DNA from: Opitutus sp. GAS368
GTDB taxonomy: Bacteria > Verrucomicrobiota > Verrucomicrobiia > Opitutales > Opitutaceae
Assembly (NCBI GenBank): GCA_945903465.1
Contig: CAMDOF010000016.1
Span: 1-64,000, forward strand
Reading direction: 5' to 3'
Length of the DNA stretch: 64,000 bases
The notes below the pieces were generated by a model. The model was given only the letters and a program-made list of their open reading frames with translations, ran no database searches and was not told where the DNA came from. The position numbers were made by a program, and so were the translations under genes. Positions 27,049 to 48,824 of this stretch are shown piece after piece. How positions within the stretch are numbered: position 1 is the first letter of the stretch; every line of letters starts with the position of its first letter.

Positions 27049-27106
27049 GGTAAAACCACTCACCAGCACCAAGGTAAGACAACTCACGACCACTCATTTG
27101 AAATCA

Positions 27107-31118: not shown

Positions 31119-32018
31119 TCACCCTTGGAGCGGCGCCGCCACGACATCCAACTCATGCGAGCGGCGATACTCACGCGGCGAGCAACCGCAGGCGCGGCGA
31201 AAGGCTTCGTTGAATCGGCTGATCGATAGGAAACCCGACTCGAACGCGATTTCCGTCACGGTCTGCTCGTTGGTGGCGAGCAACCGTTGGGCGTGGGAGA
31301 TGCGGTGTTGGGTAAGGTAGCTGATCAGCGTCGTCCCGAATGTTTTTTGAAACAAGTTCATCGCGTAGTTCGGGTGCAGCTTCACCGCCGCTCCGATCTG
31401 CGCCACCGTCAGCTTTTCCGTGTAGTTTTGGGCGATGAAGCACGCCATTTGTTCGACTTTGTTCAACCCAGTATCAGTGATCGTGGCGATCCGTTCCCGT
31501 TTGGTGCGCGCCGTTTTGCACACGGGCAGCTTGAGCGCCATGCGAATCAGCCGCGCCTGGATCTCCAACAGCACCGGCCGCTCCAGCTCCGACGATTTTT
31601 TAGCCAAGTCGTCTTCCCAATGTCCGAACAGCTGCCGATCAGAATTCGACCGCTCGGTCGTCGCTTCACTGACGAGGCGGCCCTGCATCAACGGCTGGAG
31701 CAACTTCTCCGGCAACCGCCACTGTAAAAAACACTGGAGCGGAATCGTCGCCACGTAGTAGGACGTTCCAGTGCCAAAATCGATAATCTGGTGCGGAATC
31801 GCCGCCCAGAACACGCTCAGTTTTCCCGCTTGGACTACGGTCTTCGTGCCACCGAGCAGATAAGTCACCGAACCAGACTCGAGAAAGTTGAGTTCGACTT
31901 CGTTGTGATGGTCGGGCCGCCGCATCGGCGACGGTCGCCAGTGCACGCACGTCAGCCCATAAGGCGCAAAATCGGGACGGTTTGGATCAAACGAAAGCGC
32001 ATGCGGGTTTCGGGTCAT
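31119..32018 (-). CDS. AraC-family transcriptional regulator
   Basis: Carbohydrate-type AraC regulator, 299 residues; the ATG at 32018 is preferred over 32054. The N-terminal cupin-like sensing domain contains NEVELNFLESGSVTYLLGG. Two C-terminal helix-turn-helix units follow: LTVAQIGAAVKLHPNYAMNL, and TVTEIAFESGFLSISRFNEA ending GCSPREYRR. It is transcribed away from the broken TonB receptor and the ABC/enzyme genes, the standard position for a local activator responding to the imported sugar. It is the only regulator in the 31-49 kb cluster. Confidence 0.9.
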   Translation of the reverse strand: MTRNPHALSFDPNRPDFAPYGLTCVHWRPSPMRRPDHHNEVELNFLESGSVTYLLGGTKTVVQAGKLSVFWAAIPHQIIDFGTGTSYYVATIPLQCFLQWRLPEKLLQPLMQGRLVSEATTERSNSDRQLFGHWEDDLAKKSSELERPVLLEIQARLIRMALKLPVCKTARTKRERIATITDTGLNKVEQMACFIAQNYTEKLTVAQIGAAVKLHPNYAMNLFQKTFGTTLISYLTQHRISHAQRLLATNEQTVTEIAFESGFLSISRFNEAFRRACGCSPREYRRSHELDVVAAPLQG

Positions 32019-32156
32019 GGGGCTTTGTCTTAGGATACCGCTAGAAAAAGCCAAGAAGACGGAAGACTGCTGGTAAAAAGATATGCTACCGTCTCCGCTT
32101 GCGATCGCCCCTCCGTTGCCGCCCCCCCTCCGTCTACAAAAAACCCACTAACCCAT
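32019..32156. promoter_or_regulatory. Divergent regulatory region, AraC gene / receptor gene
   Basis: The 138-bp gap between the start of the AraC regulator (minus) and the TonB-receptor remnant (plus). It must contain both promoters and probably the AraC-type operator. I see no confident -35/-10 pair or direct-repeat operator by eye. Confidence 0.4.
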
Positions 32157-34389
32157 ATGCTCAGCCCGATCCTCTGGGATTCTGACGTTCGCTCGAGCGC
32201 CTCCGCGCTCAATCGTTGCGCCGCCGTCGCCGCCCTCGCCGTGTCTTTTTCGATCTCGCCCAATACAGGTCTAGGGCAGGCCTCCGGCACCGGCGCGATC
32301 GCTGGTTCGGTGAAAAACGAATCTACGCAAAAGGTCCACGAACGAGCCACCGTGGCCATCGCGGGCACCAACTTGGTGGGCCTCGCCGCTGCCGACGGTA
32401 GCTTTCGTCTCATCGGCGTGCCGGCCGGTGCGCAGACGGTGCAGATTGGCTACCCCGGCCTTAAAGACAAACCGGTCACCGTTTCGGTCGCGCCGGTGGC
32501 AGCCACCACCGTCGACGTCGCGCTCAAGAGCGACGTGCTGCAAATCCCGGAGTTCCGCGTCACGGGGAAGCGCGAAGGGAACGCTTACGCGATCCAGCAG
32601 CAAAAGAATGCGGAACCCCAGCGCAACATGGTTTCCACCGACGTTTTCGGGGCCGTCGCCTCAACGCCACGGTGAACCTCACGGGAAACTCCAACTGGAT
32701 GACGCTCGCCAAAACCTCCGGTCCCGACGATCACGCCACCCGCAAGCTCAGCCCGGGCGGTTCGATCAGCTACTCGGACAGCTTTCTGAACGGGCGCCTG
32801 GGCGTCGCGTCGAGCTTGAGCAAACTCTACGTCAACGGCTTTGGTGGCACCGCCTACAACACCTACACGACGAATGCCAGTGGCACCTTCGTCAGCCAGT
32901 ATCAGCGCGAGGACCACCAGAATTTCACGATCCGCCAGGGCAGTTCGCTCAACCTCGACTACAAGGTGAATGAGTCCACCACCGCCTTCGTGCGGACGAC
33001 CTTCACCGATCATTACGATACTTTCCGCAACCGCTTCCTCCGGTTCAACACCGGCACGATCGTCGGCGCAGCCACCTCATCCCGGGTCGAAACGACGAAT
33101 GGCAACACCGAGCAGAACATGAGCATCGGGGACAAGAATAACGGTTCCACCACGCTCAACGCCGGCGCGAAACACCGCTGGGCGGGCTGGACAGTTGACT
33201 ACGACGCCGCGTATTCGCGCGCGTTCAACCACTACGACTACCTGCCGAGAAATTTCAGCGCCATCACCCTCCGCACCTCCGGAGTGGGCTATATTCTCGA
33301 ACAGGATCCGGCGCGCGCACCTGCGGCGCGTTTGGTCCAGACCGCCGGCGCCGACGCGTATAAGCTCGGCAACGGGGCCTACGCGCCGCTCGCCAACTCG
33401 ATCACCGTCGGAGATCGCTCCTCGGTGGACACGGTCGCGAGCGGCCAGGGCCGCGTGCGCCGCGAATTCACCGGCGAACGCCCGTTCACCCTCGGGTCCG
33501 GCCTGTCGCGGCAAAAACAGGAACGCGTCCGCCAAAATCCGAGCAAGCGCTGGAGCTACGCCGGACCCGACGGCGTGGTCGGCACCGCCGACGACACGAC
33601 GGCGGCCAATAGGCAGCGTTTCGCCGAGCCCGAATACGCGCCGCGGCTCTACTTCGGCGAGCGCAGCCCCGATCAATGGATCAGTCCGTTCCAGCTCGCC
33701 AAGTTCTATGCGCAAAGCCCCGCCGCTTTCGTGGAGGACGTGCCCAACAGCTACGATGTCGCCTTCCGCAACCACCAGCGCATCGAGGAAATCATTTGGG
33801 CCTACTATGTCATGGGCAGTTTGAAGTTGGGTTCACTCGACGTGCTCGCCGGCCTGCGCCTTGAGGAAACCTACGTCGATGGCGACGGCGCGAAGCAAAA
33901 CAACGCTGCCGCCGCCGGCCTCGTGCTCAATTCGCACGCCTATCACCAGGCGCGTTTCAGCCGCACGAGCGCGAGCACGCGTTACCGGCCGATCCGTTCA
34001 AGTATCTGCACCTCACGTGGCACGCCAACAAGCCGCTCCAGGCCCGCGCCAGTTACTCCGAGTCGATCGGCCGGCCGAACTACGGCAGCATCATCCCCGG
34101 CCTTTCCGGCATCACCGCGACGACCGTCACCGTCGCCAACACGGCGCTCCGCCCACAACGCTCGGAGAATCTCGACGCCAGCATCGAGTGGTATCCCAGC
34201 CGCACGAGTTCCTTCATCGCGGCGCTGTTCCGCCAGGACATCAAGGATTACATCGTAAACAACACCCAGCGCATCACCGCGCCGATCCCCGACCTCAGCA
34301 TCGGCCAGGATCTCCTCGGCGGCCGCTCCACGCGCCTTGGCACCGGCGGCGGCACCGCGCTCACGCTCACCTTGGCGGCCCGATTCTGA
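32157..34389 (+). pseudogene. TonB-dependent receptor, disrupted
   Basis: Outer-membrane sugar receptor with at least two lesions. The first piece (32157-32675) has a signal region, a carboxypeptidase-regulatory-like domain (GTGAIAGSVKNES, VAIAGTNLVGLAAADGSF) and the pre-plug segment NMVSTDVFGAV. It then jumps with a frame change straight to barrel sequence (RLNATVNLTGNSNWM), so the plug of roughly 150-230 residues is missing. The barrel runs to about 33965, where a second shift occurs. Restoring frame gives [20 protein letters not shown] and [15 protein letters not shown], ending at the stop 34387-34389 without a normal C-terminal strand. It cannot make a gated receptor as read. Sequencing error could explain the shifts but not the lost plug. 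Confidence 0.85.
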
Positions 34390-34493
34390 CCTTGATTCAG
34401 CGGCTCTCACTTCAACGCCGGACTCGCCTTTCGGCGCGTGCGGCGTTGGCTTATTCTCTGGGCTTTAGACTTCACCCGTTACCAATCAATCCA

Positions 34494-35453
34494 ATGAAAA
34501 TTCCCCGCCTGCTCCGAGTCCTCGCGTCTATCTGCTTGGTCGCCCTGACGCTGTCAAAAGTCGCCGCTGCGGCCGATACCAAAGCCGCCGGCAACCGCAA
34601 AGTCGCCGTCGTTGTCTCGACGCTCAACAATCCTTGGTTCGTCGTCCTCGCCGAAACCGCCCGCGATCGCGCCAAGGAACTCGGCTTTGACGCCACGATC
34701 TTCGATTCACAAAACGACCCCGCCAAGGAGTCGCAGCATTTTGACAACCTCATTTCCTCCGGCTATCGCGCTGTGCTCTTCAATTGCACTGACGCGAAAG
34801 GCTCCATCGCCAACGTCCGCCGCGCCAAGGCGGCCAACATTCCCGTCTTCTGCATGGACCGTGAGATCGAGGCCAACGACGCCGCCACCTCGCAAATTCT
34901 CTCCGACAATTATTCCGGCTGCGTCGCGCTCGGCCAGTTCTTCGTCGAGCAGATCGGCGAGACGGGCAAATATGTCGAACTGCTCGGCATCGTCGCCGAT
35001 ACCAACACGTGGAATCGCTCGAAAGGCTTCCACTCCGTCGTAGATCGCTTCCCCGGCCTGAAAATGGTCGCGCAACAAAGCGCCGAGTTCGATCGCAGCA
35101 AGGCGCTCGAAGTCCTCGAAGCCCTCCTCCAGCGCAATCCTGATATCAATGCCGTTTTCTGCGGCAATGATGCCATGGCCATGGGTGCCTATCAGGCCCT
35201 CCTCGCCGCCGGAAAAGCCGGCAAAGTAAAAGTCTTCGGCTTCGATGGCGCGGACGATGTCGTGAAAGCTGTCGCCGAGGGCAAAATTGCCGCGACGGTC
35301 ATGCAGTTTCCCAAAACGATGGCACGCACCGCCGCGGAGAACGCCGACAAGTATATCAAGGGCGAACGGAAGTTTCCCCAGCGCACTCCCGTCGCCGTCG
35401 AGCTCGTAACGAAAGCTAACGTAAACAAATTCGGTGACTATGGCCGCAAGTGA
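34494..35453 (+). CDS. Sugar ABC transporter periplasmic binding protein (RbsB type)
   Basis: Substrate-binding protein of the Peripla_BP_4 family, 319 residues, start at the ATG at 34494. The signal peptide spans about residues 1-27 ([20 protein letters not shown]). The mature part starts [20 protein letters not shown], as in ribose- and xylose-type binding proteins, with the ligand-contact region [10 protein letters not shown] and [13 protein letters not shown]. It delivers a monosaccharide, probably a pentose, to the ATPase and permease encoded at 36162-38682. First intact gene of the transport operon, 105 bp after the receptor remnant. Confidence 0.9.
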
Positions 35454-36162
35454 ACAAGTGGGGCGGGTCTCTGCTCCGCCCTCGAATCGTCGAGCGGCCG
35501 AGAGGGCAGGTCAAAGACCCGCCCGACTACTCGCTGCTACCCTCACGCTCGCCGTTCTCCTCTACTTTTTCCCGCTCTTCCATGTCGTCTCTTTGCAGAC
35601 TCAGGCCGCCGCTGCCGCGACGGCGGCCGCGTCCGCATCCGCGGCTTTCGATCCCGTCACCGCTGCCGCTAAATTCTGGCAGATCGATCTCCCCGCCGCC
35701 GCCACGCGCGCAGTGGAATTACCGGCCCTTGCACCAGCCATTCGGGCGAACGCCGAGAGTGCCAAAACCCAATTCTCAAAATCCGCTGGTCTCGGCACCG
35801 CCTACTTCTTCGTCCGTGGCAGCGGCAAAGTCCTCTCCCGTGATCGCAATTATCTCCGCCTCGCCCCCGCAGGCGCAGAATCTGAGATCGTCGCGCTCCG
35901 CATCGGCCCGATCTTCGGCAACACGGTGCGTGACGGCAGCGGCCTGCTCGACGTGAATTCGTTTCCCGGCCTGCAGGAATTCAACGCGCTCGCGGCCGCG
36001 CTCAACGCGCTCGTGGAAAAAAGCGTCGGGCCGCTGCTCCGCGAGAAGGCCGTCGTCGGCACCACCGTCCACTTCGCCGGCTGCGCCGAAGCGCCCGAGG
36101 GCGCCGCCGAAGCCGGTGAGCCGCTCCTGACGATCATTCCCGTCCAAGCAGAAGTCCTCTGA
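35440..36162 (+). CDS. DUF2291 family protein
   Basis: About 240 residues; the ATG at 35440 overlaps the end of the binding-protein gene, with a GTG six bases upstream as an alternative. A single N-terminal membrane anchor ([19 protein letters not shown]) is followed by an Ala-rich stretch and a domain containing [36 protein letters not shown] and [14 protein letters not shown]2291 proteins occur almost only inside ribose-type ABC operons; their role is unknown and probably periplasmic. The gene overlaps the ATPase gene downstream by one base, so all are translationally coupled. Confidence 0.8.
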
Positions 36163-37700
36163 TGAGCGCCGACCCTAACATCGTGCTCGCAGCCGCGGGC
36201 ATCACGAAATTCTTTCCCGGCGTGCGCGCGCTCGGCGGGGTGTCGATCCGCGTGCGGCGCGGCCGGCTCCTCGCGCTGCTCGGGGAGAATGGCGCCGGCA
36301 AGTCCACGCTCATGAACATCCTCTCCGGTGTCTTTTTACCGGACGAGGGCACGCTGTATCTCGACGGCCGGACGGTGAGCTTTCCCAACCCCAGCGCCGC
36401 GCTCGCCGCTGGCATCGCTATCGTTTTTCAGGAGCTGAATCTCATTCCGCATCTTTCCGTGGCGGAAAATATTTTCCTCGGCCGGGAGCCGCGCACGCGC
36501 TTCGGCCTAATCGACTATCCGCAGCTCAACGCCGCCGCCGCCGCCGTGCTCAAGCGGCTCGCCCTCGCGGTCGAGCCCACGGCCCTCATCGCGGATCTGC
36601 GCGTCGGCCAGCAGCAACTCGTCGAGATCGCCCGCGCCGTCTCGGTGGACGCTCGCGTGCTCATCCTCGACGAGCCCACTTCATCGCTCTCTGCTCACGA
36701 AGTCGACGTGCTCTTCAGCGTGATCACCGAACTCAAGAGCCGCGGTGTCGCGTTGATTTACATCACGCACAAGTTCGACGAGCTGGCCCACGTCTGCGAC
36801 GACGTGACGATCATGCGCGACGGCTGCGTCGTCGGTGAATCCCTTTACGCCGATCTCACACGCGACGCGTTGGTGCGGCTGATGGCCGGGCGCGAAGCGA
36901 AGGAGACGTTTCAAAAATCGCCGGCCGTGCTGGGCGACGAGCTCCTGCGCGCCGAAGCCATCTGCCTGCCCGGTGCGGGTGCGGGGCGTCCGTTCCTCGT
37001 TGAAAATATCTCGTTCGCGCTCCGCCGCGGCGAAGTGCTCGGCATCTTCGGTCTGGTCGGTGCCGGCCGCACGGAGCTGCTCGAAACGCTGTTCGGCCTT
37101 CATGCAAAACGCGCCACGGGCCAACTCAGTCTCGAAGGAAAACCCATCAACTTTACCTCTCCCGCTGCGGCCCTCGCCGCGGGCCTCGCCTTGGCTCCCG
37201 AGGACCGTAAGCGCGACGGCCTGGTTCTCCCCATGAGCGTCGCGGCCAACGCCAGCCTCGCGAGCCTCGAACGTACGCTCCACGCCGGGTTCGTCAGTGC
37301 GACGCGCGAGACCGCCTATATTACGCCCTACATCGAGCGGTTCCGCGTCAAGACGCCTTCGCTCGACCAACTCATCGTCAACCTCTCCGGCGGCAACCAG
37401 CAGAAGGTCATCCTCGCCAAGTGGCTCGCGACCGGCCCGAAAATACTCCTCCTCGACGAGCCCACGCGCGGCATTGATGTGAACGCGAAGCGGGAGATCT
37501 ACGCCTTCATCGACGAACTCGCCCGGCTCGGCCTCGGTCTGATCGTTGTGTCGTCCGAGTTGTCCGAGATTCTCGCGCTCGCCGATCGCGTCTTCGTGAT
37601 GTGCGAGGGCCGTCAGACGGCGGAGTTCACCCGCACCGATGCGACGCCGGAAAAAATCCTCGCGGCCGCGTTTCCCACCAAGACGGCCTCCGCCGCCTGA
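36162..37700 (+). CDS. Sugar ABC transporter ATPase, two nucleotide-binding domains (RbsA/MglA type)
   Basis: 512 residues, the normal length of a fused monosaccharide importer ATPase. Domain 1 has Walker A GENGAGKST (41-49) and Walker B VLILDEPTSSLS. Domain 2 has the degenerate P-loop FGLVGAGRTELLE usual for this family, the signature VNLSGGNQQKV and ILLLDEPTRGIDV. It powers uptake through the permease at 37702. Start overlaps the DUF2291 stop by one base. Confidence 0.93.
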   Translation: MSADPNIVLAAAGITKFFPGVRALGGVSIRVRRGRLLALLGENGAGKSTLMNILSGVFLPDEGTLYLDGRTVSFPNPSAALAAGIAIVFQELNLIPHLSVAENIFLGREPRTRFGLIDYPQLNAAAAAVLKRLALAVEPTALIADLRVGQQQLVEIARAVSVDARVLILDEPTSSLSAHEVDVLFSVITELKSRGVALIYITHKFDELAHVCDDVTIMRDGCVVGESLYADLTRDALVRLMAGREAKETFQKSPAVLGDELLRAEAICLPGAGAGRPFLVENISFALRRGEVLGIFGLVGAGRTELLETLFGLHAKRATGQLSLEGKPINFTSPAAALAAGLALAPEDRKRDGLVLPMSVAANASLASLERTLHAGFVSATRETAYITPYIERFRVKTPSLDQLIVNLSGGNQQKVILAKWLATGPKILLLDEPTRGIDVNAKREIYAFIDELARLGLGLIVVSSELSEILALADRVFVMCEGRQTAEFTRTDATPEKILAAAFPTKTASAA

Positions 37701-37701
37701 C

Positions 37702-38682
37702 ATGAGCGGATCGAAATTCACGTTTTCCTTCCGTAAGTTCCAGTCGCTCTTCGCCCTGGCGATCATGGTCGGCGCCCTCGCGCTTCTCTCCGACAAGTTT
37801 TTCACGCCCGACAACAGTTGGAATATTTTGCGACAGATCTCGGTGAACCTCTGTCTTTCGATCGGTATGACGCTGGTCATCCTCAGCGGGGGCATCGATC
37901 TCTCGGTGGGTGCGATCCTCGGTCTGGCTGGCGCCGTCACGGCCGGCCTGCTGAAAAACGGGTTGGCTCTCCGAGGGCTGGAGGCGCGCCTAGAGTTTAC
38001 GGTCACTGGTGCGATTGTTGCTGGTATCGCGGTCGGCGGTGCCGCGGGTTGGTTCAACGGCTTTGCGATCACGCGCTTTCGACTGCCGCCCTTTGTCGCA
38101 ACCCTTGGCATGCTCTCCATCGCGCGCGGCCTCACGATGCTGTGGACCGGCGGGTTTCCCGTCACTTCGCTGGGATCAACGTTCGGTTTCCTTGGCACCG
38201 GGGCGATCCTCGGCATGCCGATGCCGGTCTGGATCATGCTCGCGCTCGTCGGGAGCTTCGTCGTCGTGACGCAGCGCACGCGCTTTGGCCGGCACATCTA
38301 CGCCGTCGGCGGTAACGAGCGCGCCGCTCGCCTCACCGGTCTCAACGTCCCGCGGATCAAGCTCGCCGTTTACACGCTCGCAGGCGCGCTCGCCGGCGTC
38401 GCCGGGCTCATCGTCACCGCACGCCTCGACTCCGCGCAACCCAACGCCGGCCTCGGTTATGAACTCGACTCCATCGCTGCCGTCGTCATCGGCGGCACCT
38501 CGCTCTCCGGCGGTCGTGGCTCGATCGGGGGCACCGTGCTCGGTTGCCTGATCATCGGCGTGCTCAACAATGGTCTTTTTCTCCTCAACGTGTCGCCCTT
38601 CTGGCAGCAAGTCATCAAGGGCCTCGTCATCCTGGTCGCCGTGGCCATCGACAAACTCAACGCCCGCGGGCGTGAATCCTGA
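37702..38682 (+). CDS. Sugar ABC transporter permease (RbsC type)
   Basis: 326 residues, about eight to ten membrane segments, start at the ATG directly after the ATPase stop. Family landmarks are [39 protein letters not shown] and [20 protein letters not shown]. It forms the membrane channel of the ribose/xylose-type importer. Its stop overlaps the start of the DUF1593 gene by one base, tying the importer to the secreted hydrolases in one transcript. Confidence 0.93.
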
Positions 38683-39977
38683 TGAAATTCTTCCGGATTT
38701 TTTCCGCCCTCCTTACCCTGATTCTCGCCGCTGGATTGTCGTCCGCTGCGCCCGCCCGCCCGCGCGTGATCGTGTCGACCGATATTGGTGGCACCGATTT
38801 CGATGACTTTCAGTCCCTCGTGCATTTGCTGGTCTACGCCGACGCCATCGACCTCGAGGGCATGATCGCCTCGCCGTGGGGCCCGGCCCGTAATCGCCGG
38901 CACCACCTGCTCGACCTGGTCGATCTCTACGCGCGCGACTACCCGAATCTCCGCACCCATTCGCCTCACTACCCGACGCCTGCACACTTGCGCGGCATCA
39001 GCAAGCAGGGCGGCCTCGACTCGGCCGACCTGCGCGGTTTTGGCGCCCGCACCGAAGGATCCGATTGGATCATTTCCTGTGCGAAAAGCGCCGACGCGCG
39101 CCCCTTGTGGCTGCTGATCTGGGGCGGCATCGACGACCTCGCGCAGGCGGTGCACGACGACCCGTCGATCAAGTCGAAACTCCGGGTGTATTTTATCGGG
39201 GGGCCGAACAAGAAGTGGTCCGCCACGGCTTACGACTACCTGGCGCGCGAGCATCGCGACCTCTGGATCATCGAGTCGAATTCGACCTATCGTGGCTGGT
39301 TTATGGGTGGCGACCAATCCGGCGATCTCGGCAATGAGGCGTTTGTCAGCGCGCACGTCAAAGGCCGCGGTGCGCTCGGCGACTACTTCGTCACGATCGC
39401 ACCTAAAATCAAAATGGGGGACACGCCTTCGCTCGCTTATGTGTTCGGCGCCATGCCGGAGGATCCTTCGAAAGATTCGTGGGGCGGCCACTTCATCCGG
39501 GCGTGGGAGCGGCCAAGGCACACGTTCGACCAGGCGCCGATGGCGGGCGACCGGGTTGAGGTCTACTCGATCGTGGATTTGGTCTATCGACCGAGCGGCG
39601 CGACCCCGGCTGACCCCAAGGCGACGCTGATCGTCGAGAAGCAGGAGTTCACGGGCTTTCAGGCCAGCGACGGAGCGTGGCATTTCCTTTTCAGCCCAAA
39701 AGATGCGCGCACGTTTTCCTACCAGATCGCCAGCAACCACCCGGGGCTCAATGGTCAGACCGGTGCGTTTACGTCGGTGCGGCCTGATCCCGCTCGCGCG
39801 AAAACGCCGTCACGGCGCTATCCTCATTGGTGGATCGACGATCCCGATTCGCGTTGGCGGGAAGGCAACGAGCAAGGCGCAAAGACGGTCAGCCGTTGGC
39901 GCGCTGAATTCCTGCGCGACTTCGCCGCGCGCCTGGAGCGTTGCCGGACGCCAGCTCCTCGTTCCTCTCTGCGATGA
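38682..39977 (+). CDS. DUF1593 nucleoside-hydrolase-like secreted protein
   Basis: 431 residues with a signal peptide ([15 protein letters not shown]). The mature N-terminus has the nucleoside-hydrolase-like metal cluster [14 protein letters not shown] with Asp34, Asp39, Asp41 and Asp42. DUF1593 proteins have the nucleoside-hydrolase fold and occur in polysaccharide-use loci, where a furanoside hydrolase role is plausible but not proven. The C-terminus ([20 protein letters not shown]) contacts the usual second domain. It is coupled to the permease (one-base overlap) and to the pectate lyase (ATGA). A second, diverged copy is at 42515-43939. Confidence 0.87.
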
Positions 39978-41062
39978 TTCTCCGTTTACACCCATTCGCT
40001 CTCTTCACCCTGGCTGTCGGCACTCTGCTGCCAGCTGCAGAATCACCGCCGCTCCGGTGGGGTTCCAGCGCCCTCCGCCAGAAGCCCGAGTGGTATGCCT
40101 CCGCCGCGGCGCACTCCGCCGCTACAACGGTTCTCGGTTACCAATCCGAAGTCGGCGCCTGGCCGAAAAACACCGACCTGCTCGCGCCCGCAACGCCCGC
40201 CGCCTTGGCCGCGGTCGCGAAAGGCGGTCTCGCGAACACGATCGACAACGGCGCGACCACCACCCCACTGCGCTTCCTCGCGCTGGTCGCCACTGCCTCT
40301 CAAGACGGGACGTTCCACGCGCCGATCCTTCGCGGCGTCGATTACCTTCTCGCCAGCCAATATGCGAATGGCGGCTTCCCTCAGTTCTACCCGCTGCGCA
40401 AGGGCTACTACTCGCACATCACGTTCAACGATGACGCGATGATCGACGCGCTCACGCTCCTGCGCGATATCGCCGAGAGCCGCGAGCCATTCCGTATCAT
40501 CGACTCAGCCCAGCGGGCGCGTGCCGCCGATGCGGTGAAGCGCGGCGTCGCTTGCATTCTGCAGACGCAGATCAACCACGAGGGGCGCGTCACGGTCTGG
40601 TGTGCCCAGCACGACGAGCAAACCCTCGCCCCCGCCTGGGCCCGTAAATACGAGCCACCCTCGCTCTCCGGCGCCGAGAGCGTCGGCGTCGTGCGTTTTC
40701 TGATGTCCGTCGCCATGCCCTCGCCCGAAATCGTCGCCGCCATCGAAGGTGCCGTCGGGTGGTTCCGCGCCGTTCCGATCACCGGCCGGCGGATCAAATC
40801 CCTGCCGCAGCTCGGAGGCAAACCTGACGCCCTCCTCGTCGACGATCCAGCCGCCCCGCCGCTCTGGGCGCGCTTCTACGAACTCGGCACCAATCGTCCG
40901 CTTTACATGGATCGCGATTCCAAGCCTCTCTATGACTTCGCCCTCGTAAGCTACGAACGCCGTAGCGGCTACCACTACCACACCACCTCGCCGGCCTTAC
41001 TCCTCGATCGCGACTACCCCGCCTGGCGCGCCCGGCTCGCCGCCACTTTCAACGCGAAATAA
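39974..41062 (+). CDS. PL10-type pectate lyase
   Basis: 362 residues from the ATG at 39974, which overlaps the previous stop. A signal peptide ([17 protein letters not shown]) marks it as secreted. Alpha/alpha-barrel polysaccharide lyase family 10 features: WRSS-like start [65 protein letters not shown], and [20 protein letters not shown]. It would cleave polygalacturonate by beta-elimination, showing that the locus targets pectin. Confidence 0.9.
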
Positions 41063-41069
41063 TCTCTCC

Positions 41070-42511
41070 GTGAAAACCCTCCGCTCAGTCCTGCGGCTTT
41101 TTACCACCAGGCTTTCCCTCGCCGCCACCGCGCCTTCGCCTGCCAGTCCTCTCCGCGTCGCCGCCGCTAGCCGCACGTCAGCGCAGGCCGACCGCCCGCC
41201 GCTCTTCTCGCTGGGCGACACCGCTTGGCTCCGTGCGCAGAAGCTCAATTGCGAGAAAACAAAAACCTGCTTCGAAAATCTTCGCACGCAGGGCTTCACC
41301 CTCGTCCCGTGCTGCGTCGTCCCGTGCTCCGTCGTCCCGTGCTGCGTCGTCCCGTGCCTGCACGACAAGGGGTTCAATGGCCGTCCCGCGCTGGTCGACG
41401 AAACCATCACGACATTAAATGCCGCGCCCGGCCGTTCGCCGTCCGACCCTGCTCAACCCAACTACTGGGATCACGTCGCCTCCATCGTCGATACCGCCGC
41501 GGCCAACGGCATCATCGTCGCCATCGCGCCGGTATCGAGCCACACGGTGCGCCGCACGCCGTTCACCGCCGCGCTGGTCGCGCCCTATATCGATCAAGTG
41601 GCGCCGCGCTCCCAGAGCTGCGCCAACGTCATTTGGCTCAAGGGCGGCTCCGGCCGCGGCCACGAAAATGCGGATCTCTGGCAGGTCATCGGCGAAACCC
41701 TCAAGTACCGCGCGCCCCCGCGACTCGTCTCGGCCCATCCCTTTAGACGCACCGTGTCAACGGAGTGGTTCAAGGATACCCCATGGCTCGACTTCCCTAG
41801 GTTCACCTGCTTCCAACGGCGCTACCATCAGGATACCGACGGCCGAAAATTCAGTGAAGACAACTGGCGCCACGTGCTCGCGTCCCGCGCCCCCGCGCCC
41901 TCGCGCCCGGTGCTCGATGCCGAGCCGGCCTCCGAGACTACGCCCCAAGGCCTGCACAAACCCGAGGAGCCCTGCCGGACTGGCCACGACTCGCGCCAGT
42001 ACGCCGATTGGTCCGTGTTTTCCGGCGCCCCCGGTCACACCTTCGGGGCGAACTCCGTCCGCCAAGTTGAAATTCCCCTCGAGAAGAAGCCCGCGAGCGG
42101 TGCCCAGGGCTTCATCCTGGAGCGTCTCGACAGCGAGGGCGCGGGCCAGATGTGCCACCTGAAAAACCTGCCGCTCTCGCGGCCTCTCCTCGGCCGCGTC
42201 AACGACCGAGCGCACGCCGCCGGCGACGAAGGTGAGAAATACGACCGTGTGCTCATCACGCGCGGCGCCGGCGGCGTGCTCGCCTCCACCGACACCGGCG
42301 CACGTTCACGCTCCAGCTGCGCACGCGCGGCGTCGGGTCGTTCCAGGGCGGATGGTTCCATCCGCGCACCGGCGAAGCGGCGCCGGCCGGTTCCCACCCC
42401 GGCACCGACGCGGTCCCCTTCGCCCCGCCGGGCGCGTCCGCCCCAGCCAACGACTGGGTCCTCGTCCTCGACGCGGCTACGAAAGACTTCAAGGTACCCG
42501 GCGCACTCTGA
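41070..42511 (+). pseudogene. DUF4038-family glycosidase (apiosidase-like), frameshifted
   Basis: GTG start at 41070. The (beta/alpha)8 hydrolase domain of DUF4038 type is recognisable: PPLFSLGDTAWLRAQKLN, ANVIWLKGG, TPWLDFPRFTCFQRRYHQ, EDNWRHV, VLDAEP and YADWSVFSGAPGHTFG. A one-base loss near 42297-42301 throws the end into a wrong frame running to 42518. In the restored frame TFTLQLRTRGVGSFQGGWFH and VLVLDAATKDFKVPGAL end at 42511, four bases before the next gene. The usual Asp of the GGD motif is Ser (GGSGRG), and a 15-bp expansion sits at 41302-41361. DUF4038 includes the GH140 apiosidases; activity here is doubtful. Confidence 0.75.
41302..41361 (+). repeat. 15-bp in-frame tandem repeat inside the DUF4038 gene
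   Basis: Four units of TCGTCCCGTGCTGCG (fourth divergent) at 41302, 41317, 41332 and 41347. They encode VPCC-V repeated, an unusual Cys-Pro-Val run. Being a multiple of three it does not break the frame, but it replaces a strand-loop region normally close to the active site of this family. Confidence 0.92.
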
Positions 42512-42514
42512 TTT

Positions 42515-43939
42515 ATGAAACTTAAAATCATCGGCCTACTTCTCCTCGCCGCGGCGACCAGCGTCGCCGCGCACGCCGCCGAAAATCCCCGCGTCTTCGT
42601 GCTCACCGACATCGAGAACGAGCCCGACGATGCCATGTCGATGGTGCGTTTTCTCACCTACGCGAACCACTTTGAAATCGAAGGGCTGATCGCCACGACC
42701 TCGATCCACCAGCGCAGCCACGTCGCGCCGCAGTCCATCCGGCGGATCGTCGAGGCCTACGGCAAGGTGCGCGACAACCTGGAAAAACATGAGCCGGGCT
42801 TTCCGACCAGTGCGCACCTACTCACGCTTGTGAATCAGGGGCTGCCGGTTTACGGCCTGACGGGAGTGGGTGAAGGCAAAGACTCGCCGGGCTCCGAGCT
42901 GCTAATCCGCGCGATCGACCGCGACGATCCCCGGCCGCTTTGGGTGCCGGCCTGGGGCGGTCCCAGCGTGCTGGCGCAGGCGCTCTGGAAAATCCGCGCC
43001 ACCCGTTCGCCTGAATCCCTCGCCAAGGCGGTCGCGAAACTTCGCACTTACACGATCTCCGATCAGGACGACTCCGGTCCCTGGCTGCGGAAGGAATTTC
43101 CCGCTCTGTTCTACATCACGAGCCCCGGCTTCAACGCCGGTGGCGCTTATCATCACGCCACGTGGAGCGGTATCAGCGGAGACTATTTTCATGCCCGGTG
43201 TCCCGGCGCCGATTTCACGCTCGTGACAAACGAGTGGCTCGATCGTAACATCCGCAAGAAGGGCCCGCTCGGTGCCGAGTATCCGCGTTGGGACTTTCTC
43301 ATGGAGGGCGACACGCCGAGTTTCCTCGGTCTGATCGCCAATGGACTCAACGCGCCCGAACATCCCGACTGGGGCGGTTGGGGCGGCCGTTACGAGCTCT
43401 ACACTCCGCGCCCGCAGAAATGGCACCTGTATCCGGAAACGCGCCCGCTCTGGAGCGACGCCGACGACGAAGTTCTGGGCGTCGACGGACGCTGGTACGA
43501 CACCAACCACGCGACCATCTGGCGTTGGCGCGAAGCCTATCAGAACGACTTTGCTGCGCGGATGGATTGGACGGTCAAGGCCTACAAAGACGCCAACCAC
43601 CCGCCTGTGCCCAAGCTTGCCCACGCCGCCGAACTCACGGTCAAACGCGGCGCCCGCGTCGATCTCAGCGCCGAGAGCACCACCGATCCCGATGCCGATA
43701 CGCTGTCGTATAGTTGGTTTTATTATCCCGAAGCGGGCACGTTCGCGACCGCCAACGCGCGCTCCGGTCAGCCGCTCGAAATCCGTGGTTTCGATCAACC
43801 CAAGGCGTGGTTCACCGTGCCTACGAACCGGGTCATGGCACCGGGCACCGGTACCATGCATATTATTCTTGCTGTGACCGACCAAGGCGCACCCCGGCTC
43901 ACCCGCTACCAGCGCGTGATTGTGACAGTCGTCCCCTGA
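42515..43939 (+). CDS. DUF1593 nucleoside-hydrolase-like secreted protein, second copy
   Basis: 474 residues with a signal peptide ([18 protein letters not shown]). Metal-site-like motif [14 protein letters not shown] (Asp32, Asp38, Asp39), then [15 protein letters not shown] and [14 protein letters not shown]. Unlike the first copy it carries the full C-terminal Ig-like DUF1593_C domain (residues about 380-474, [20 protein letters not shown]). Low identity to the 38682 copy suggests different substrates. Four bases separate it from the restored end of the DUF4038 gene. The substrate is presumed to be a pectin side-chain glycoside. Confidence 0.88.
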
Positions 43940-44066
43940 GCCACTTTATCTGCCCACCACCAAGCCCCGGCAGGATGGGAGCAAGCCCCGCCATCTCCTG
44001 CGATCCTCGCTGCTCCGCTGAACTTCACTCGCTCGCCATCCCTTCGCTTAACCGCCCGCTTTTCCC

Positions 44067-45491
44067 ATGTCCACTCCTCGCACCACCCTCGGTGTTATCA
44101 TCGGCAACCGCGACTTCTTCCCCGACAAACTTGTCGCCGAAGCCCGCGCTGACCTCGTCACCCTCTTTGCCGAAATCGGCGTTGACGCCGTCCTGCTCGA
44201 TCCCGCCGCGACCAAACTCGGCGGCGTCGAGACCCACACCGACGCGCGTCAGTGCGCCGAGCTCTTCCGCAAAAACCGCGACCGTATTTCCGGCGTCCTG
44301 GTGTGCCTGCCGAACTTCGGCGACGAAAAAGGCGTGGCCGATACGCTGAAACTCGCCGGCCTCAACGTGCCCGTGCTCGTGCAGGGCTACCCCGATGACC
44401 TCGACCGCCTCGACGTGATCCGTCGCCGCGACGCCTTCTGCGGAAAAATTTCCGTCTGCAACAATCTCCGCCAGGCCGGTATCGCTTTCACGCTCACCAC
44501 GCAACACGTGGTCCACCCGCTCCACGCCTCGTTCCGCGCCGACCTGAAGAATTTCATCGCCGTCGCCCGTGTGGTGCAGGGTTTGCGCAAGGTCCGCATC
44601 GGCGCCGTTGGTGCCCGGCCGGGTGCATTCAACACCGTCCGCTACTCCGAAAAGATTCTTGAGCGCCACGGCATCTCGGTCACCACTGTCGACCTCTCTG
44701 AAATTCTGGGAGCCGCCGCAAAAATAGGTGAGACCGACAAACGCGTGGTGTCGAAGATCGACGAGATCAAAGCTTACGCCAACGCGACCGCCGTCCCGCC
44801 CGCGAAGCTCATCCAGATGGCCCGCCTCGGGCTTGTCCTCGACGACTTCGTCGCCGCTAACCACCTCGATGCGACCGCCATTCAGTGCTGGACGTCCGTC
44901 CAGGCCAACCACGGCTGCAACGTCTGCACCTCGATGAGCATGATGAGCGAGAACTTTCTCCCCAGCGCGTGCGAAGTGGACGTCACCGGCGTGCTCACGA
45001 TGTATGCGATGCAACTCGCGTCGTCGTCACCCAGCGCGCTCGTCGATTGGAACAACAACTACGGCACCGACCCCGATAAGTGTGTGCTCTTCCACTGCGG
45101 CAATTGGGCAAAGTCTTTTCTCCCCGACATCAAAATCCTCAACGCCCCCATCCTCGGCTCGACCCTCGGCGTCGAAAACACGTGGGGCGCACTCGATGGC
45201 CGTACGCCTGCCACACCGCTCACCTACGGACGCATCACCACCGACGACACCGCCGGCGTCATTCGCACCTACGTCGGCCAAGGCGAGTTGACAAACGATG
45301 AGCTGAAAACCTTCGGCAACCGTGCCGTGGCCCGCGTGCCGAAACTCCCAAAGCTCATGCATCACGTCTGCCGCGAGGGATTCGAGCACCACGTCGTGAT
45401 GAACTCCTCTCATACGGCCGGCATACTCGCCGAAGCTTTCGAGCGCTATCTGGGCTGGGAAGTTTATCATCACGCCGCCCCACAGGACTAA
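44067..45491 (+). CDS. L-fucose/L-arabinose isomerase-like protein
   Basis: Cytoplasmic sugar isomerase, 474 residues. The fucose-isomerase-type metal ligands are identifiable by pattern: Glu303 in ACEVDVTGVL, Asp327 in LVDWNNNYG and His343 in LFHCGNWA, and the N-terminal domain starts LGVIIGNRDFFPDKLV. It would convert an imported aldose to the ketose. A 127-bp gap separates it from the secreted enzymes, so a second promoter is possible. The next gene begins one base after the stop. Substrate is not determined by sequence; the transketolase and kinase downstream suggest a pentose. Confidence 0.86.
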   Translation: MSTPRTTLGVIIGNRDFFPDKLVAEARADLVTLFAEIGVDAVLLDPAATKLGGVETHTDARQCAELFRKNRDRISGVLVCLPNFGDEKGVADTLKLAGLNVPVLVQGYPDDLDRLDVIRRRDAFCGKISVCNNLRQAGIAFTLTTQHVVHPLHASFRADLKNFIAVARVVQGLRKVRIGAVGARPGAFNTVRYSEKILERHGISVTTVDLSEILGAAAKIGETDKRVVSKIDEIKAYANATAVPPAKLIQMARLGLVLDDFVAANHLDATAIQCWTSVQANHGCNVCTSMSMMSENFLPSACEVDVTGVLTMYAMQLASSSPSALVDWNNNYGTDPDKCVLFHCGNWAKSFLPDIKILNAPILGSTLGVENTWGALDGRTPATPLTYGRITTDDTAGVIRTYVGQGELTNDELKTFGNRAVARVPKLPKLMHHVCREGFEHHVVMNSSHTAGILAEAFERYLGWEVYHHAAPQD

Positions 45492-45492
45492 C

Positions 45493-46332
45493 ATGCCCAC
45501 CGACGGCGAACTCGCCCGCAAATCTCTCCAATACCGGCGCAATGTTCTGCGCTGGATCAAGCACGCCGGCGCCGGCCACACCGGCGGCAGCCTGTCTTGC
45601 GTGGATATCCTGAACGTCCTTTATAACCGCATCCTCCGCGTCTCCCCCGCTACGTTCACCGATCCGAAGCGCGATCGCTACATCCAGAGCAAGGGCCACT
45701 CGGTCGAGGCGCTCTTCGTCGTCCTCGCCGACTGCGGATTTTTTCCCGAGTCGGATCTCGAGACGCTTTGTGGCTATCAATCCGCCTACGTCGGCCACCC
45801 GACGCGCCACGTGACGGGTGTCGAGCAAAACACCGGCGCCCTCGGCCACGGCCTTCCCCTCGCCGTCGGCACCGCGCTCGCCAGCAAGCTCGACGATGCG
45901 GGCTTCCGTGCCTTCACCCTCCTCGGCGATGGCGAACTCGCCGAAGGTTCAAATTGGGAAGGCGCACTCGCCGGCGCGCATTACAAATTAGACAACCTCA
46001 CCGTGATCATCGACTGCAACACCCTCCAGATCACCGGTCGTACCAAGGACGTGATGAACCACGAACCTCTCGCCGAAAAATGGGCCGCCTTTGGCTGGGC
46101 CGTGCGCACCATCGACGGGCACAACCTCGCCGCGATCACCGCGGCCCTCGAGCAACCCCTCGAAGCCGGAAAACCCTCGTGCGTTATCGCCCGCACCACG
46201 AAGGGCAAGGGCGTCAGCTTCATGGAGGACGTCGGCAAATGGCACCACGGCGTGCCCAGTGCCGATGAACTTGCCCGCGCCTACGCCGAACTCGACGGCG
46301 CGATTGCGCAGCTCTCAGGAGGTGCCGCTTGA
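45493..46332 (+). CDS. Transketolase, N-terminal (ThDP-binding) subunit
   Basis: 279 residues corresponding to the first half of transketolase. The thiamine diphosphate motif GDGELAEGSNWEGAL starts at residue 145 and ends with IIDCN near 176. GHTGGSLSCVDIL and SKGHSVEALFVVLAD are typical N-terminal sites. It must pair with the C-terminal subunit, whose TTG start overlaps this stop (46329-46332). Split transketolases are frequent in dedicated sugar pathways rather than in the central pentose phosphate route, which fits this operon. Confidence 0.93.
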   Translation: MPTDGELARKSLQYRRNVLRWIKHAGAGHTGGSLSCVDILNVLYNRILRVSPATFTDPKRDRYIQSKGHSVEALFVVLADCGFFPESDLETLCGYQSAYVGHPTRHVTGVEQNTGALGHGLPLAVGTALASKLDDAGFRAFTLLGDGELAEGSNWEGALAGAHYKLDNLTVIIDCNTLQITGRTKDVMNHEPLAEKWAAFGWAVRTIDGHNLAAITAALEQPLEAGKPSCVIARTTKGKGVSFMEDVGKWHHGVPSADELARAYAELDGAIAQLSGGAA

Positions 46333-47339
46333 GCGCGCCCGCCCCTTCCATGTATTCTCCGGCGGCGAAGGCGGTCGCGGAGAAACTCGGCCTCAAAATG
46401 GGCCGCGCCAATCTTGAAGAATTTGCCGACACGCTGCTCACGCTGGCAAAAGCTGACCGCAACATCCTCGCCGTCACGAGCGATTCGCGCGGCTCCGGCA
46501 AGCTCGGCCCCTTCGGCCAGGCGCTACCCAAGCAGATCGTCGAAGTTGGCATCGCCGAGCAAAACCTTGTCGGCATCGCCGCGGGTCTCGGTTCCTGCGG
46601 AAAAAATGTCTTCGCCGTCTCTCCGGCATGCTTCCTCACGGCGCGTTCGCTGGAGCAGGTGAAAAACGACATCTGCTACTCCGACCATCCCGTGACCATC
46701 GTCGGTATCAGTGCTGGCGTCAGCTACGGTGCGCTCGGCACGACCCATCACTCCCTGCACGATTTCGCCGTCCTGCGTGCGATCAACAATCTCACGATCG
46801 TTGTTCCCGCCGACAACTTTGAGACCCGGGAAGCGGTGAAGGCCGCCGCCGCGCACGACCAGCCCGTCTATCTCCGCTTCGGCAAGGCCGCGATCTACAC
46901 GCTCCCGGCCGCCGACACCGCGCCCTTCGCCTTTGGCCAAGCCCGCGTGCTCCGCCAAGGCAACGACGTCGCCTTCATCGGCACCGGCGAGACGGTAATC
47001 CACTGCCTTCTGGCCGCTGCGCATCTCGAAACCACCGCCGGTTTACATTGCCGGGTGATCAGTCTTCCGACGTTGAAGCCGCTCGACGTCTCCGCGGTCC
47101 TCGCCGCCGCCCGGGAGTGCCGCGCCGTCGTCACCGCCGAGGAACACATGATCAACGGCGGTCTTGGCGAAGCTGTCGCCGGCGTGATCGCGCAAGCCGG
47201 CATCGGCAAGCGCTTCAAGATCGCAGGCATCGCCGACGAATACACCGCCACCGGCAGCCAGGCCGACATCTTCCGCCACTACGGTCTGACGATGGAGGGC
47301 CTCTCGGCCGCCGCCGCGGGACTGCTGCAACGTTCCTAA
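46329..47339 (+). CDS. Transketolase, C-terminal subunit
   Basis: 336 residues with a TTG start overlapping the previous stop; an ATG at 46350 is an alternative. The pyrimidine-binding domain has the catalytic Glu77 in VEVGIAEQNLVGIAAGL, followed by SAGVSYGALGTTHHSLHDFA and the C-terminal regulatory fold (VVTAEEHMINGGLGEAVAGV). Together with the upstream subunit it forms a heteromeric transketolase that would move a C2 (or related) unit from a ketose phosphate to glyceraldehyde 3-phosphate. Confidence 0.93.
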   Translation: MSAPAPSMYSPAAKAVAEKLGLKMGRANLEEFADTLLTLAKADRNILAVTSDSRGSGKLGPFGQALPKQIVEVGIAEQNLVGIAAGLGSCGKNVFAVSPACFLTARSLEQVKNDICYSDHPVTIVGISAGVSYGALGTTHHSLHDFAVLRAINNLTIVVPADNFETREAVKAAAAHDQPVYLRFGKAAIYTLPAADTAPFAFGQARVLRQGNDVAFIGTGETVIHCLLAAAHLETTAGLHCRVISLPTLKPLDVSAVLAAARECRAVVTAEEHMINGGLGEAVAGVIAQAGIGKRFKIAGIADEYTATGSQADIFRHYGLTMEGLSAAAAGLLQRS

Positions 47340-47342
47340 CCC

Positions 47343-48824
47343 ATGCCCCTTTTCCTCGCCCTCGATCAAAGCACCTCCGCCACGAAGGCCCTGCTCTTCG
47401 ATGCCGACGGCCGCGCCCTCGATCGCGAATCGCGCGACCACCGTCAGCACTACCCGCAGCCCGGCTGGGTCGAACACGACGCCGAGGAGATCTGGCAAAA
47501 TACCCTATCCGTCCTCCACGCGCTCGTCGCCCGTCACACCCCGCGCCTCGCTGAGGTCGTCGCGCTCAGCATCACCAACCAACGCGAAACCATTGTCGTC
47601 TTCGACCGCGCGACGGGCCGCCCACTTCACCCGGCGATCGTCTGGCAGTGCCGACGCGGCGACTCCATCTGCGCCGAGCACTCCGCCGCTGGTCACGCGC
47701 CGCTCATCCACGCACGCACCGGCCTCAAACTCGACGCGTATTTCTCGGCCTCGAAACTCCAGTGGCTCTTGCGCCATCGAGATGATCTCCGTGTTCGCCT
47801 CAGCGATGGCTCCGCGCTCATTGGCACTATCGACACTTACCTCATTTACCGGCTCACGCAGGGCCGCGTTTTCGCCACGGATCCTACTAACGCCAGTCGC
47901 ACACTCCTTTTCGACATCTCCCGACTCTGCTGGGACGAGGAACTCTGTGCGATCTGGGAAGTACCGCCGCGCGCCTTGCCCGAGGTGCGTGAAAGCTCGG
48001 CTAGCTTTGGTGATAGCACGATCGATGGCCTCCTCCCGCAACCGTTACCGATCAGAGGTGTCATGGGCGATTCCCAGGCCTCCCTCTTCGCTCATCGGGG
48101 CTTCACGCCAGGTGCGGCCAAAGTCACGTTTGGCACTGGCTCCTCGCTACTGCTGAACATCGGAACGCAGCCACGTTTTCCGAAAAGTGGGGTGCTCACT
48201 ACGGTCGCATGGGTCCACGCTGGCGTGCCGGTCTACGCGTTCGAGGGTATTGTTATTTCCTCAGCCTCGACGCTAACCTGGCTGCGCGACCAACTCCGGC
48301 TCGCGCCCGACGTCGCATCCATCGAGTCACTGGCGATGGCCGCGCCCGACAATGGCGGCGTCTATCTCGTGCCAGCTTTCACCGGCTTGGGCCTGCCCCA
48401 CTGGAACTCAACCGCCCGCGCCGCGATTACCGGGCTGTCCCCGCATAGTGACTGCCGCCACATCGCGCGTGCGGCGTTCGAGTCGATCGCCTTTCAAATG
48501 AGCGACGCACTTGCAGCGATGCAAGGGGAGGCAGACGTACCCATTACCTCAATCCATGGCGATGGCGGCCCCACTGCCAGCAGATTTCTGATGCAACTGT
48601 GCGCCGATCTCGCAGGCATCGATTTGCACGTCTCGACAATGGCAGATTGCTCCGCCTACGGCGCGGTGCTCGCCGGACAGCTTGGACTCGGTAGGTATCA
48701 TTCGCTCAGCGACCTTGACGCAATTTTCCGTGCCGAAACCGTCTATCGCGCGACCCTCTCGGTCGGTCATATCGAGGCTATGCGGGCGGGCTGGAGTCGT
48801 AGCGTTCAGGCAACCCTCCGGTAG
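47343..48824 (+). CDS. FGGY-family carbohydrate kinase (glycerol-kinase-like)
   Basis: 493 residues. FGGY motifs: LALDQSTSATKALLFDADG at the start, HYPQPGWVEHDAEEIW, ITNQRETIVVFDRATGRPLH and IVWQCRRGD, very like glycerol kinase in its N-terminal half. The ATP site follows (KVTFGTGSSLLLNIG, ITSIHGDGGPTASRFLMQL). In this operon it would phosphorylate the ketose made by the isomerase and feed the transketolase. Glycerol kinase itself cannot be excluded. It begins 3 bp after the transketolase stop and is the last gene of the cluster. Confidence 0.88.
   Translation: MPLFLALDQSTSATKALLFDADGRALDRESRDHRQHYPQPGWVEHDAEEIWQNTLSVLHALVARHTPRLAEVVALSITNQRETIVVFDRATGRPLHPAIVWQCRRGDSICAEHSAAGHAPLIHARTGLKLDAYFSASKLQWLLRHRDDLRVRLSDGSALIGTIDTYLIYRLTQGRVFATDPTNASRTLLFDISRLCWDEELCAIWEVPPRALPEVRESSASFGDSTIDGLLPQPLPIRGVMGDSQASLFAHRGFTPGAAKVTFGTGSSLLLNIGTQPRFPKSGVLTTVAWVHAGVPVYAFEGIVISSASTLTWLRDQLRLAPDVASIESLAMAAPDNGGVYLVPAFTGLGLPHWNSTARAAITGLSPHSDCRHIARAAFESIAFQMSDALAAMQGEADVPITSIHGDGGPTASRFLMQLCADLAGIDLHVSTMADCSAYGAVLAGQLGLGRYHSLSDLDAIFRAETVYRATLSVGHIEAMRAGWSRSVQATLR

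Follow-up and report, generated by a model that had tools for sequence, protein, structure and literature searches.

A pectin-linked operon of Opitutus sp. GAS368 as a probable variant of the D-apiose transketolase route

Which sugar is handled by an operon that joins pectin hydrolases to a sugar importer, an isomerase, a split transketolase and a kinase? We addressed this question for the island at positions 31119-48824 of a 64,000-nucleotide stretch of Opitutus sp. GAS368 DNA (the window; contig CAMDOF010000016.1, positions 1 to 64,000, assembly GCA_945903465.1). The assembly comprises 8.16 Mb and is 93% complete, and its closest named relatives by transketolase subunit A (TKA) are Opitutaceae and other Opitutia. 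The original prediction, made from the sequence alone, had proposed the transketolase route for D-apiose. Our analysis indicated that the island probably takes up and catabolises D-apiose from pectin, and that it is most likely a variant of the known route with a changed set of parts. For the catabolic core, this reading was well supported by the kinship of the isomerase, by the E. coli, Rahnella and Sodalis clusters, by the coupling of OiaX- and OiaK-like genes to the module, and by hydrolases of rhamnogalacturonan-II type next to related modules.

The predicted gene inventory held. Every gene of the co-oriented cluster behind the AraC regulator, with its importer, PL10 lyase, DUF4038 protein and two DUF1593 (PF07632) proteins, was found at its predicted place and strand, and domain matches confirmed the PF02952 isomerase, split transketolase and FGGY kinase at the end, the last gene ending at 48824. 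Two entries were added: a DUF2291 gene (35440-36162) between the binding protein and the ATPase, and a broken TonB-dependent receptor between the AraC gene and the binding protein. Twelve plus-strand genes span 34494-48824, with gaps between neighbours of -14 to +7 nt and a single 127-nt gap 5' of the isomerase; these lengths rest on the likeliest start codons, chosen by hand. The features are as follows.

31119..32054, minus strand: AraC-family regulator, divergent to the cluster (PF12833/PF00165)
32157..34389, plus strand: TonB-dependent receptor, broken, pseudogene-like (tblastn with the 989-aa TonB receptor of genome G088)
34494..35453, plus strand: RbsB-type sugar-binding protein (PF13407, matched on a longer frame; best solved relative 2fn8)
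35440..36162, plus strand: DUF2291 protein of the importer (PF10054)
36162..37700, plus strand: sugar ABC importer ATPase (PF00005)
37702..38682, plus strand, frame open from 37639: sugar ABC importer permease (PF02653)
38682..39977, plus strand: NH1, nucleoside-hydrolase-like protein with a signal-peptide-like start, judged by eye (PF07632)
39974..41062, plus strand, frame open from 39941: PL10 pectate lyase (PF09492; TIGR02474)
41070..42518, plus strand: GH140-like DUF4038 protein with a frame shift near 42300 (PF13204)
42515..43939, plus strand: NH2, PF07632 (375 bits) plus Sde0182_C, with a signal-peptide-like start, judged by eye
44067..45491, plus strand: aldose-ketose isomerase of fucose/arabinose isomerase fold, proposed D-apiose isomerase (PF02952)
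45493..46332, plus strand: TKA, TPP-binding half of the transketolase (PF00456)
46329..47339, plus strand: transketolase subunit B (TKB), pyrimidine-binding and C-terminal parts (PF02779/PF02780)
47343..48824, plus strand: FGGY kinase of the glycerol-kinase-like group, proposed apulose kinase (PF00370/PF02782)

In the mechanism that we propose, PL10 would cut the galacturonan backbone, the exported hydrolases (the GH140-like protein, the two PF07632 proteins or both) would free apiose, and the RbsB-type importer would bring it in. The isomerase would convert D-apiose to apulose, the FGGY kinase would turn apulose into apulose 4-phosphate, and the two-subunit transketolase would transfer the two-carbon unit of apulose 4-phosphate to glyceraldehyde 3-phosphate, so that xylulose 5-phosphate and dihydroxyacetone phosphate are formed; this chemistry was reportedly set out by Carter et al. 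in 2018. We infer the substrate, each reaction, the import and the regulation by AraC from sequence. A domain scan of the cluster genes revealed no aldolase or epimerase family, and our literature search found no mention of apulose.

The isomerase provided the first line of evidence. According to excerpts of PMC13001218 (2026), growth on D-apiose was seen for Escherichia coli and E. fergusonii strains that possess a ten-gene cluster, but not for K-12; the E. coli SE15 cluster, which was the query in that study and our reference for comparison, holds a DUF2291-containing importer, an FGGY kinase and a split transketolase. Plasmid clusters of Rahnella and Sodalis carry transketolase and kinase genes 72-79% identical to E. 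coli aptA, aptB and aplK, together with a fucose-isomerase-family gene to which the window isomerase is 55% identical over 98% of its length. This gene is presumably apsI, which the same excerpts describe as absent from Escherichia and present in Pectobacterium (PMC13001218). The isomerase tree (67 rows) placed the Rahnella and Sodalis isomerases as sister to the window clade (95/80). Outside these fell the isomerases of loci L062-L064, though these loci do carry transketolase, and those of six genomes of the phylum in which no transketolase was seen beside the isomerase, some at contig ends. Short or duplicate rows were left out of the TKA, isomerase and kinase trees. Orthologues of at least 73% identity occurred in 13 of 387 genomes of the phylum, its own counted. 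In the phylogenetic comparison with D-apiose enzymes that the original prediction had proposed, the isomerase stood as sister to those of the apt clusters, and TKA and the kinase stood outside the AptA and AplK clades. For the second PF02952 gene of the genome (contig C31, 579 aa), an identity as L-fucose isomerase could not be shown.

The second line of evidence came from OiaX- and OiaK-like genes of relatives. Directly behind the FGGY kinase of Aeoliella stand a RuBisCO-like (OiaX-like) gene and a DUF1537 kinase (OiaK-like) gene, and the same pair lies near the module (isomerase, TKA, TKB and kinase) in three further loci (L048, L051 and L104). The best NCBIfam match of the RuBisCO-like genes was OiaX, 3-oxo-isoapionate-4-phosphate decarboxylase (498 and 512 bits in L094 and L104), and that of the DUF1537 genes was OiaK, 3-oxo-isoapionate kinase (368 and 373 bits in L094 and L048); Carter et al. 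in 2018 are said to have placed both in the D-apionate route. OiaX-like genes (E ≤1e-100) were found in 10 of 374 genomes of the phylum, every one of which belongs to the 12 genomes whose TKA is at least 65% identical (Fisher p 5e-18, not corrected for kinship; 8 of the 10 belong to the window's family). They lay up to about 13 kb from TKA in seven genomes, about 29 kb away in one, and on another contig in two. The pair also occurs with GH127 in L152 (6790-11694), and with altronate-dehydratase-like, SDR and enolase-superfamily genes in L148 (3685-9384). In both settings it is possibly part of a route for a second branched or acid sugar; where GH127 stands beside it, this might be a branched acid sugar from rhamnogalacturonan II, for example aceric acid.

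We then examined the spread of the module. A TKA search in a collection of named genomes yielded 56 loci, and in the TKA tree the sequences that belong to the module grouped in a single clade (39 rows, 100/100). Both Verrucomicrobiota and Planctomycetota repeat the order isomerase-TKA-TKB-kinase, as do Bacillota, where the isomerase is a distant one; in Bacteroidota the four genes stand together in other orders. The importer often accompanies them in Verrucomicrobiota, Planctomycetota and Bacteroidota. Since the gene order recurs across phyla, the arrangement is not due to chance. A relative of the AraC regulator (>40% identity) was present in 12 of 40 module-clade loci checked.

Neighbouring hydrolases were tallied for 129 proteins of 250-1300 aa lying within 8 kb of TKA in 34 loci (the duplicates L069, L108 and L109 excluded). 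Five proteins running to the end of a locus were dropped, and the other 124 were scanned in two batches, one of 81 proteins (the commonest 25 of 102 families) and one of 43 (11 loci, 25 families). The results revealed GH127 in 3/81 and 6/43, the alpha-L-rhamnosidase catalytic domain in 3/81 and 2/43, PF13204 in 3/81 and 1/43, GH141 in 3/43, GH88 in 2/81 and GH95 in at least 1 of the 124. Two Phycisphaerae loci have, after the kinase, a protein matching part of the beta-glucuronidase/beta-L-arabinofuranosidase model (374-403 bits, cut-off 1800), and the locus of Paraglaciecola has a BT1020-like propeller. The roles of GH127, rhamnosidase, PF13204, GH141, GH88, BT1020-like and beta-L-arabinofuranosidase-like proteins fit rhamnogalacturonan II.

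The module also occurs with another isomerase. Paraglaciecola hydrolytica falls inside the module TKA clade, yet it has a TIM-barrel (PF01261) isomerase in place of the fucose-isomerase type. Rhizobium SL42 and Streptomyces encode relatives of this enzyme next to a transketolase and a kinase, and in Croceibacterium a relative shares a plasmid with such genes; the stretches fetched from these four contained no relative of the window isomerase that we could find. Rhizobium SL42 and four loci of fucose-isomerase type also have a DeoR regulator, with 52-57% identity to the one in Paraglaciecola. The isomerases, though unrelated, thus probably fill the same role.

The window kinase gave glycerol kinases as its top models and solved relatives (TIGR01311, 532.8 bits, below the cut-off of 590.35; PRK00047, 526.9 bits, above the cut-off of 498). 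The predicted FGGY kinase is thus present, with glycerol kinase as its best named family. The original prediction had held that such a grouping would speak against D-apiose; the grouping was found, but it is uninformative because AplK of E. coli, to which the window kinase is 35% identical, also matches glycerol kinase best (495 bits with the same model, compared to 533 for the window kinase). The name was accordingly rejected as a refutation of an apulose kinase. In such loci, the annotation 'glycerol kinase' is probably an error, for a reason that can be checked: at the sites of DQ and CF in E. coli GlpK, the window kinase has DS and SS, as in AplK, so that the Gln and Phe of GlpK, which we take to contact glycerol, are both replaced by Ser. 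DS together with [STC]S occurred in 65 of 69 aligned kinases, AplK and the window kinase included (sequences scoring >200 bits or taken from annotated clusters; weak matches of ≤200 bits were excluded). The other four have DQ and comprise GlpK and three Flaviflexus proteins, the latter from loci with a split transketolase. No further gene of comparable identity to the window kinase was found in the genome, and a glycerol kinase role is thus possible.

Several results weigh against D-apiose. TKA and TKB are 52% and 41% identical to AptA and AptB of E. coli, and AptA is no closer to TKA than other split transketolases are (271 plasmid records, all <60%); the identity was therefore rejected as proof of the apiose route. 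In the TKA tree, where AptA and a Caballeronia sequence are joined by suspect long branches, the window fell outside the AptA clade, and a quick kinase tree kept the window kinase out of the AplK clade. All OiaX and OiaK matches stayed below the curated cut-off (700), and the window's own genome had no OiaX match at 1e-100 (nor had G143, the other such module genome) and weak, partial OiaK matches. It also has a single, marginal GH127 match, so that the island may act on an apiose polymer of simpler build, for instance apiogalacturonan. The broken TonB receptor lies in pieces in three frames, with up to 62% identity to the 989-aa relative and without the parts matching residues 175-277 and 811-955. 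As to the DUF4038 glycosidase, the gene and its GH140-type domain were confirmed (PF13204, 173.9 bits, cut-off 26.5), but the frame is not intact: the C-terminal 200 nt are in another frame from about 42300. The gene also carries a 15-nt repeat at 41299-41357. The protein and its four nearest relatives (L044-L047) have GGS, compared to GGD in three solved GH140-like relatives and in the copy on contig C93 of the same genome; the Asp of this motif is presumably catalytic in GH140. Since the gene is frameshifted and its product lacks this Asp, the predicted release of apiose by it is unproven. PL10 was clear (TIGR02474, 318 bits, cut-off 189.8; PF09492 also above its cut-off).

The importer provided the remaining counterevidence. 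The E. coli apiose cluster encodes an ATPase and a permease to which those of the window are 43% and 41% identical, and the DUF2291 gene has the same place in the clusters of E. coli, Klebsiella, Rahnella, Sodalis and Rhizobium. The window's sugar-binding protein shares 62% of its residues (176/284) with the ribose-binding protein 2fn8, which we take to be from Thermotoga maritima, and 44% with Rhizobium etli 5ibq, presumably solved with apiose. Binding proteins of the E. coli and Rhizobium SL42 clusters rank 5ibq first, whereas that of the window ranks 2fn8 first. The proposal of an apiose importer was thus not well supported: the architecture is that of the apiose clusters, but the binding protein is nearer to the Thermotoga ribose-binding protein than to theirs.

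This similarity leads to the strongest rival, in which the cluster would serve D-ribose or D-arabinose: the isomerase would yield D-ribulose, the kinase D-ribulose 5-phosphate, and the transketolase would be an extra pentose-phosphate enzyme. We consider it unlikely. Neither sugar is known from pectin. Besides the binding protein, it is favoured by the predicted isomerase fold, which resembles L-arabinose, D-arabinose and L-fucose isomerases (AraA and FucI), and by a similar Thermotoga operon, read in excerpts of PMC3750489 as a ribose operon with two predicted D-arabinose enzymes and a transketolase. However, neither a ribokinase nor an epimerase family turned up among the cluster genes, among the 25 families of the 43-protein batch or the commonest 25 of 102 families of the 81-protein batch; moreover, the sister isomerases stand in E. 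coli-type apiose clusters, and OiaX-like genes track the module.

Use of L-arabinose or L-fucose from pectin side chains would likewise agree with the AraA/FucI superfamily fold and with GH127 (9/124) and GH95 (at least 1/124) among the relatives' neighbour proteins; it is very unlikely, given an isomerase identity to the AraA and FucI structures of 11-15%, cluster genes that match neither an L-ribulose-phosphate epimerase nor a fuculose-phosphate aldolase family, and a transketolase, which is not known to take part in those routes. A sulfo-sugar or other unusual sugar handled as in the sulfo-transketolase route is hardly credible: a sulfofructose transketolase route, with a two-subunit enzyme, exists, and the isomerase weakly matches the sulfoquinovose isomerase SftI (77.6 bits, cut-off 700), but no sulfonate gene was recognised among the cluster genes, and a kinase would be unexpected where sulfonate replaces phosphate.

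Under the D-apiose reading, the two PF07632 proteins are of interest as hydrolases. The predicted fold of NH1 (modest model confidence, pLDDT 70) was nearest to 2yhg, a Saccharophagus protein. Residues D34, D39, D41, D42 and D247 of NH1 were invariant in 9/9 aligned sequences, and D32, D38, D39 and D266 of NH2 in 14/14; we take these acidic residues to be the calcium site of nucleoside hydrolases. Apiose occurs in the wall as a furanoside. Sde_0182 of Saccharophagus is described in excerpts of PMC8910321 as inactive on nucleosides and perhaps furanose-binding. It is conceivable, if doubtful, that the PF07632 proteins form a new O-furanoside hydrolase family that frees apiose or other pectin furanosides and replaces the damaged GH140-like gene. 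The literature search found nothing joining nucleoside hydrolase, rhamnogalacturonan and polysaccharide utilization, and no mention of DUF1593.

The module has PF07632 genes as neighbours in Verrucomicrobiota, Bacteroidota and one gammaproteobacterium; in Croceibacterium, an alphaproteobacterium, they adjoin the gene for the TIM-barrel isomerase. Within the fetched stretches (up to about 10 kb on each side), a PF07632 protein was present in 15 of 28 module-clade loci of named genomes versus none of the 12 remaining loci. Matches above the cut-off occurred in 6 of 12 module genomes versus 25 of 362 other genomes of the phylum; in five of these six, all except that of the window, they were far from the module or on another contig. 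An obligatory role in the module was not upheld. Because the TonB receptor, importer, NH1 and NH2 of G088 form a separate run, far from its module, the importer and PF07632 genes are a block of their own, fused to the catabolic module in the window. The 51 PF07632 copies in 13 genomes were not used as a statistic, since these genomes had been chosen for their PF07632-bearing loci.

Some further loci were recorded. Listeria L123 (3576-10789) carries a fucose-isomerase-like isomerase (26% identical to that of the window), TKA, TKB, a 'glycerol kinase', a beta-glucoside PTS and a DUF4038 protein, and possibly serves the uptake of apiosyl-glucosides. Three Succinivibrionaceae loci (L070, L072 and L074) hold E. 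coli-type apiose clusters, with binding protein 72-73% and kinase 60% identical, and with an SDR that matches one of the E. coli SDRs at 63-64%; a search of these stretches found no relative of the window isomerase. ribB or ribBA, encoding 3,4-dihydroxy-2-butanone-4-phosphate synthase, lies near the module in six loci of three phyla:

L049, 5392-6507: ribB/ribBA
L062, 5473-6051: ribB/ribBA
L098, 5332-6426: ribB/ribBA
L099, 14464-15498: ribB/ribBA
L100, 14864-15901: ribB/ribBA
L120, 13685-14278: ribB/ribBA

ribB also flanks a transketolase-kinase cluster of Shinella, and the window's genome has one PF00926 gene, on another contig. Perhaps ribB beside the module is a spare copy, since a ketose phosphate of the route would inhibit RibB. 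Just upstream of the island (23683-29304), the window encodes a CHASE-PAS sensor kinase (1121 aa) and a receiver-histidine kinase protein (28225-29304).

Compared with known systems, the island shares with the D-apiose transketolase route (apsI, aplK, aptA, aptB; E. coli/Pectobacterium type) a DUF2291-containing RbsB-type importer, an FGGY kinase and a two-subunit transketolase, and with the Rahnella and Sodalis apt clusters an isomerase of 55% identity. Unlike the E. coli-type cluster, it has a binding protein of a different subgroup, TKA and kinase of other clades, an AraC regulator instead of a sugar-binding one, and pectin hydrolases inside the operon. The TIM-barrel form has the same transketolase pair and kinase in Paraglaciecola, Rhizobium SL42, Streptomyces and Croceibacterium, and the window's importer type in Paraglaciecola and Rhizobium, but uses a PF01261 isomerase. 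The Bacteroides rhamnogalacturonan-II systems resemble the relatives' loci in GH127, GH78, GH141, PF13204, BT1020-like and beta-L-arabinofuranosidase-like proteins, whereas the window holds only PL10, the damaged GH140-like gene and the two PF07632 proteins. The T. maritima ribose operon shares a ribose-type ABC importer, with its 62% identical binding protein, and a transketolase; in contrast to the window, it has a ribokinase and RbsR, and excerpts of PMC3750489 mention no pectin hydrolase.

Apiose use has been reported in Enterobacterales, Bacteroides and Clostridia (excerpts of PMC13001218). By our results, the transketolase route would also occur in Verrucomicrobiota and Planctomycetota, and a single operon would combine import and catabolism with the cutting of pectin. 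They show the same gene neighbourhood with isomerases of two unrelated folds, and point to PF07632 as a candidate furanosidase family. The coupling of OiaX-like genes to the module suggests that many such bacteria, the window's genome not among them, have two apiose-related routes side by side.

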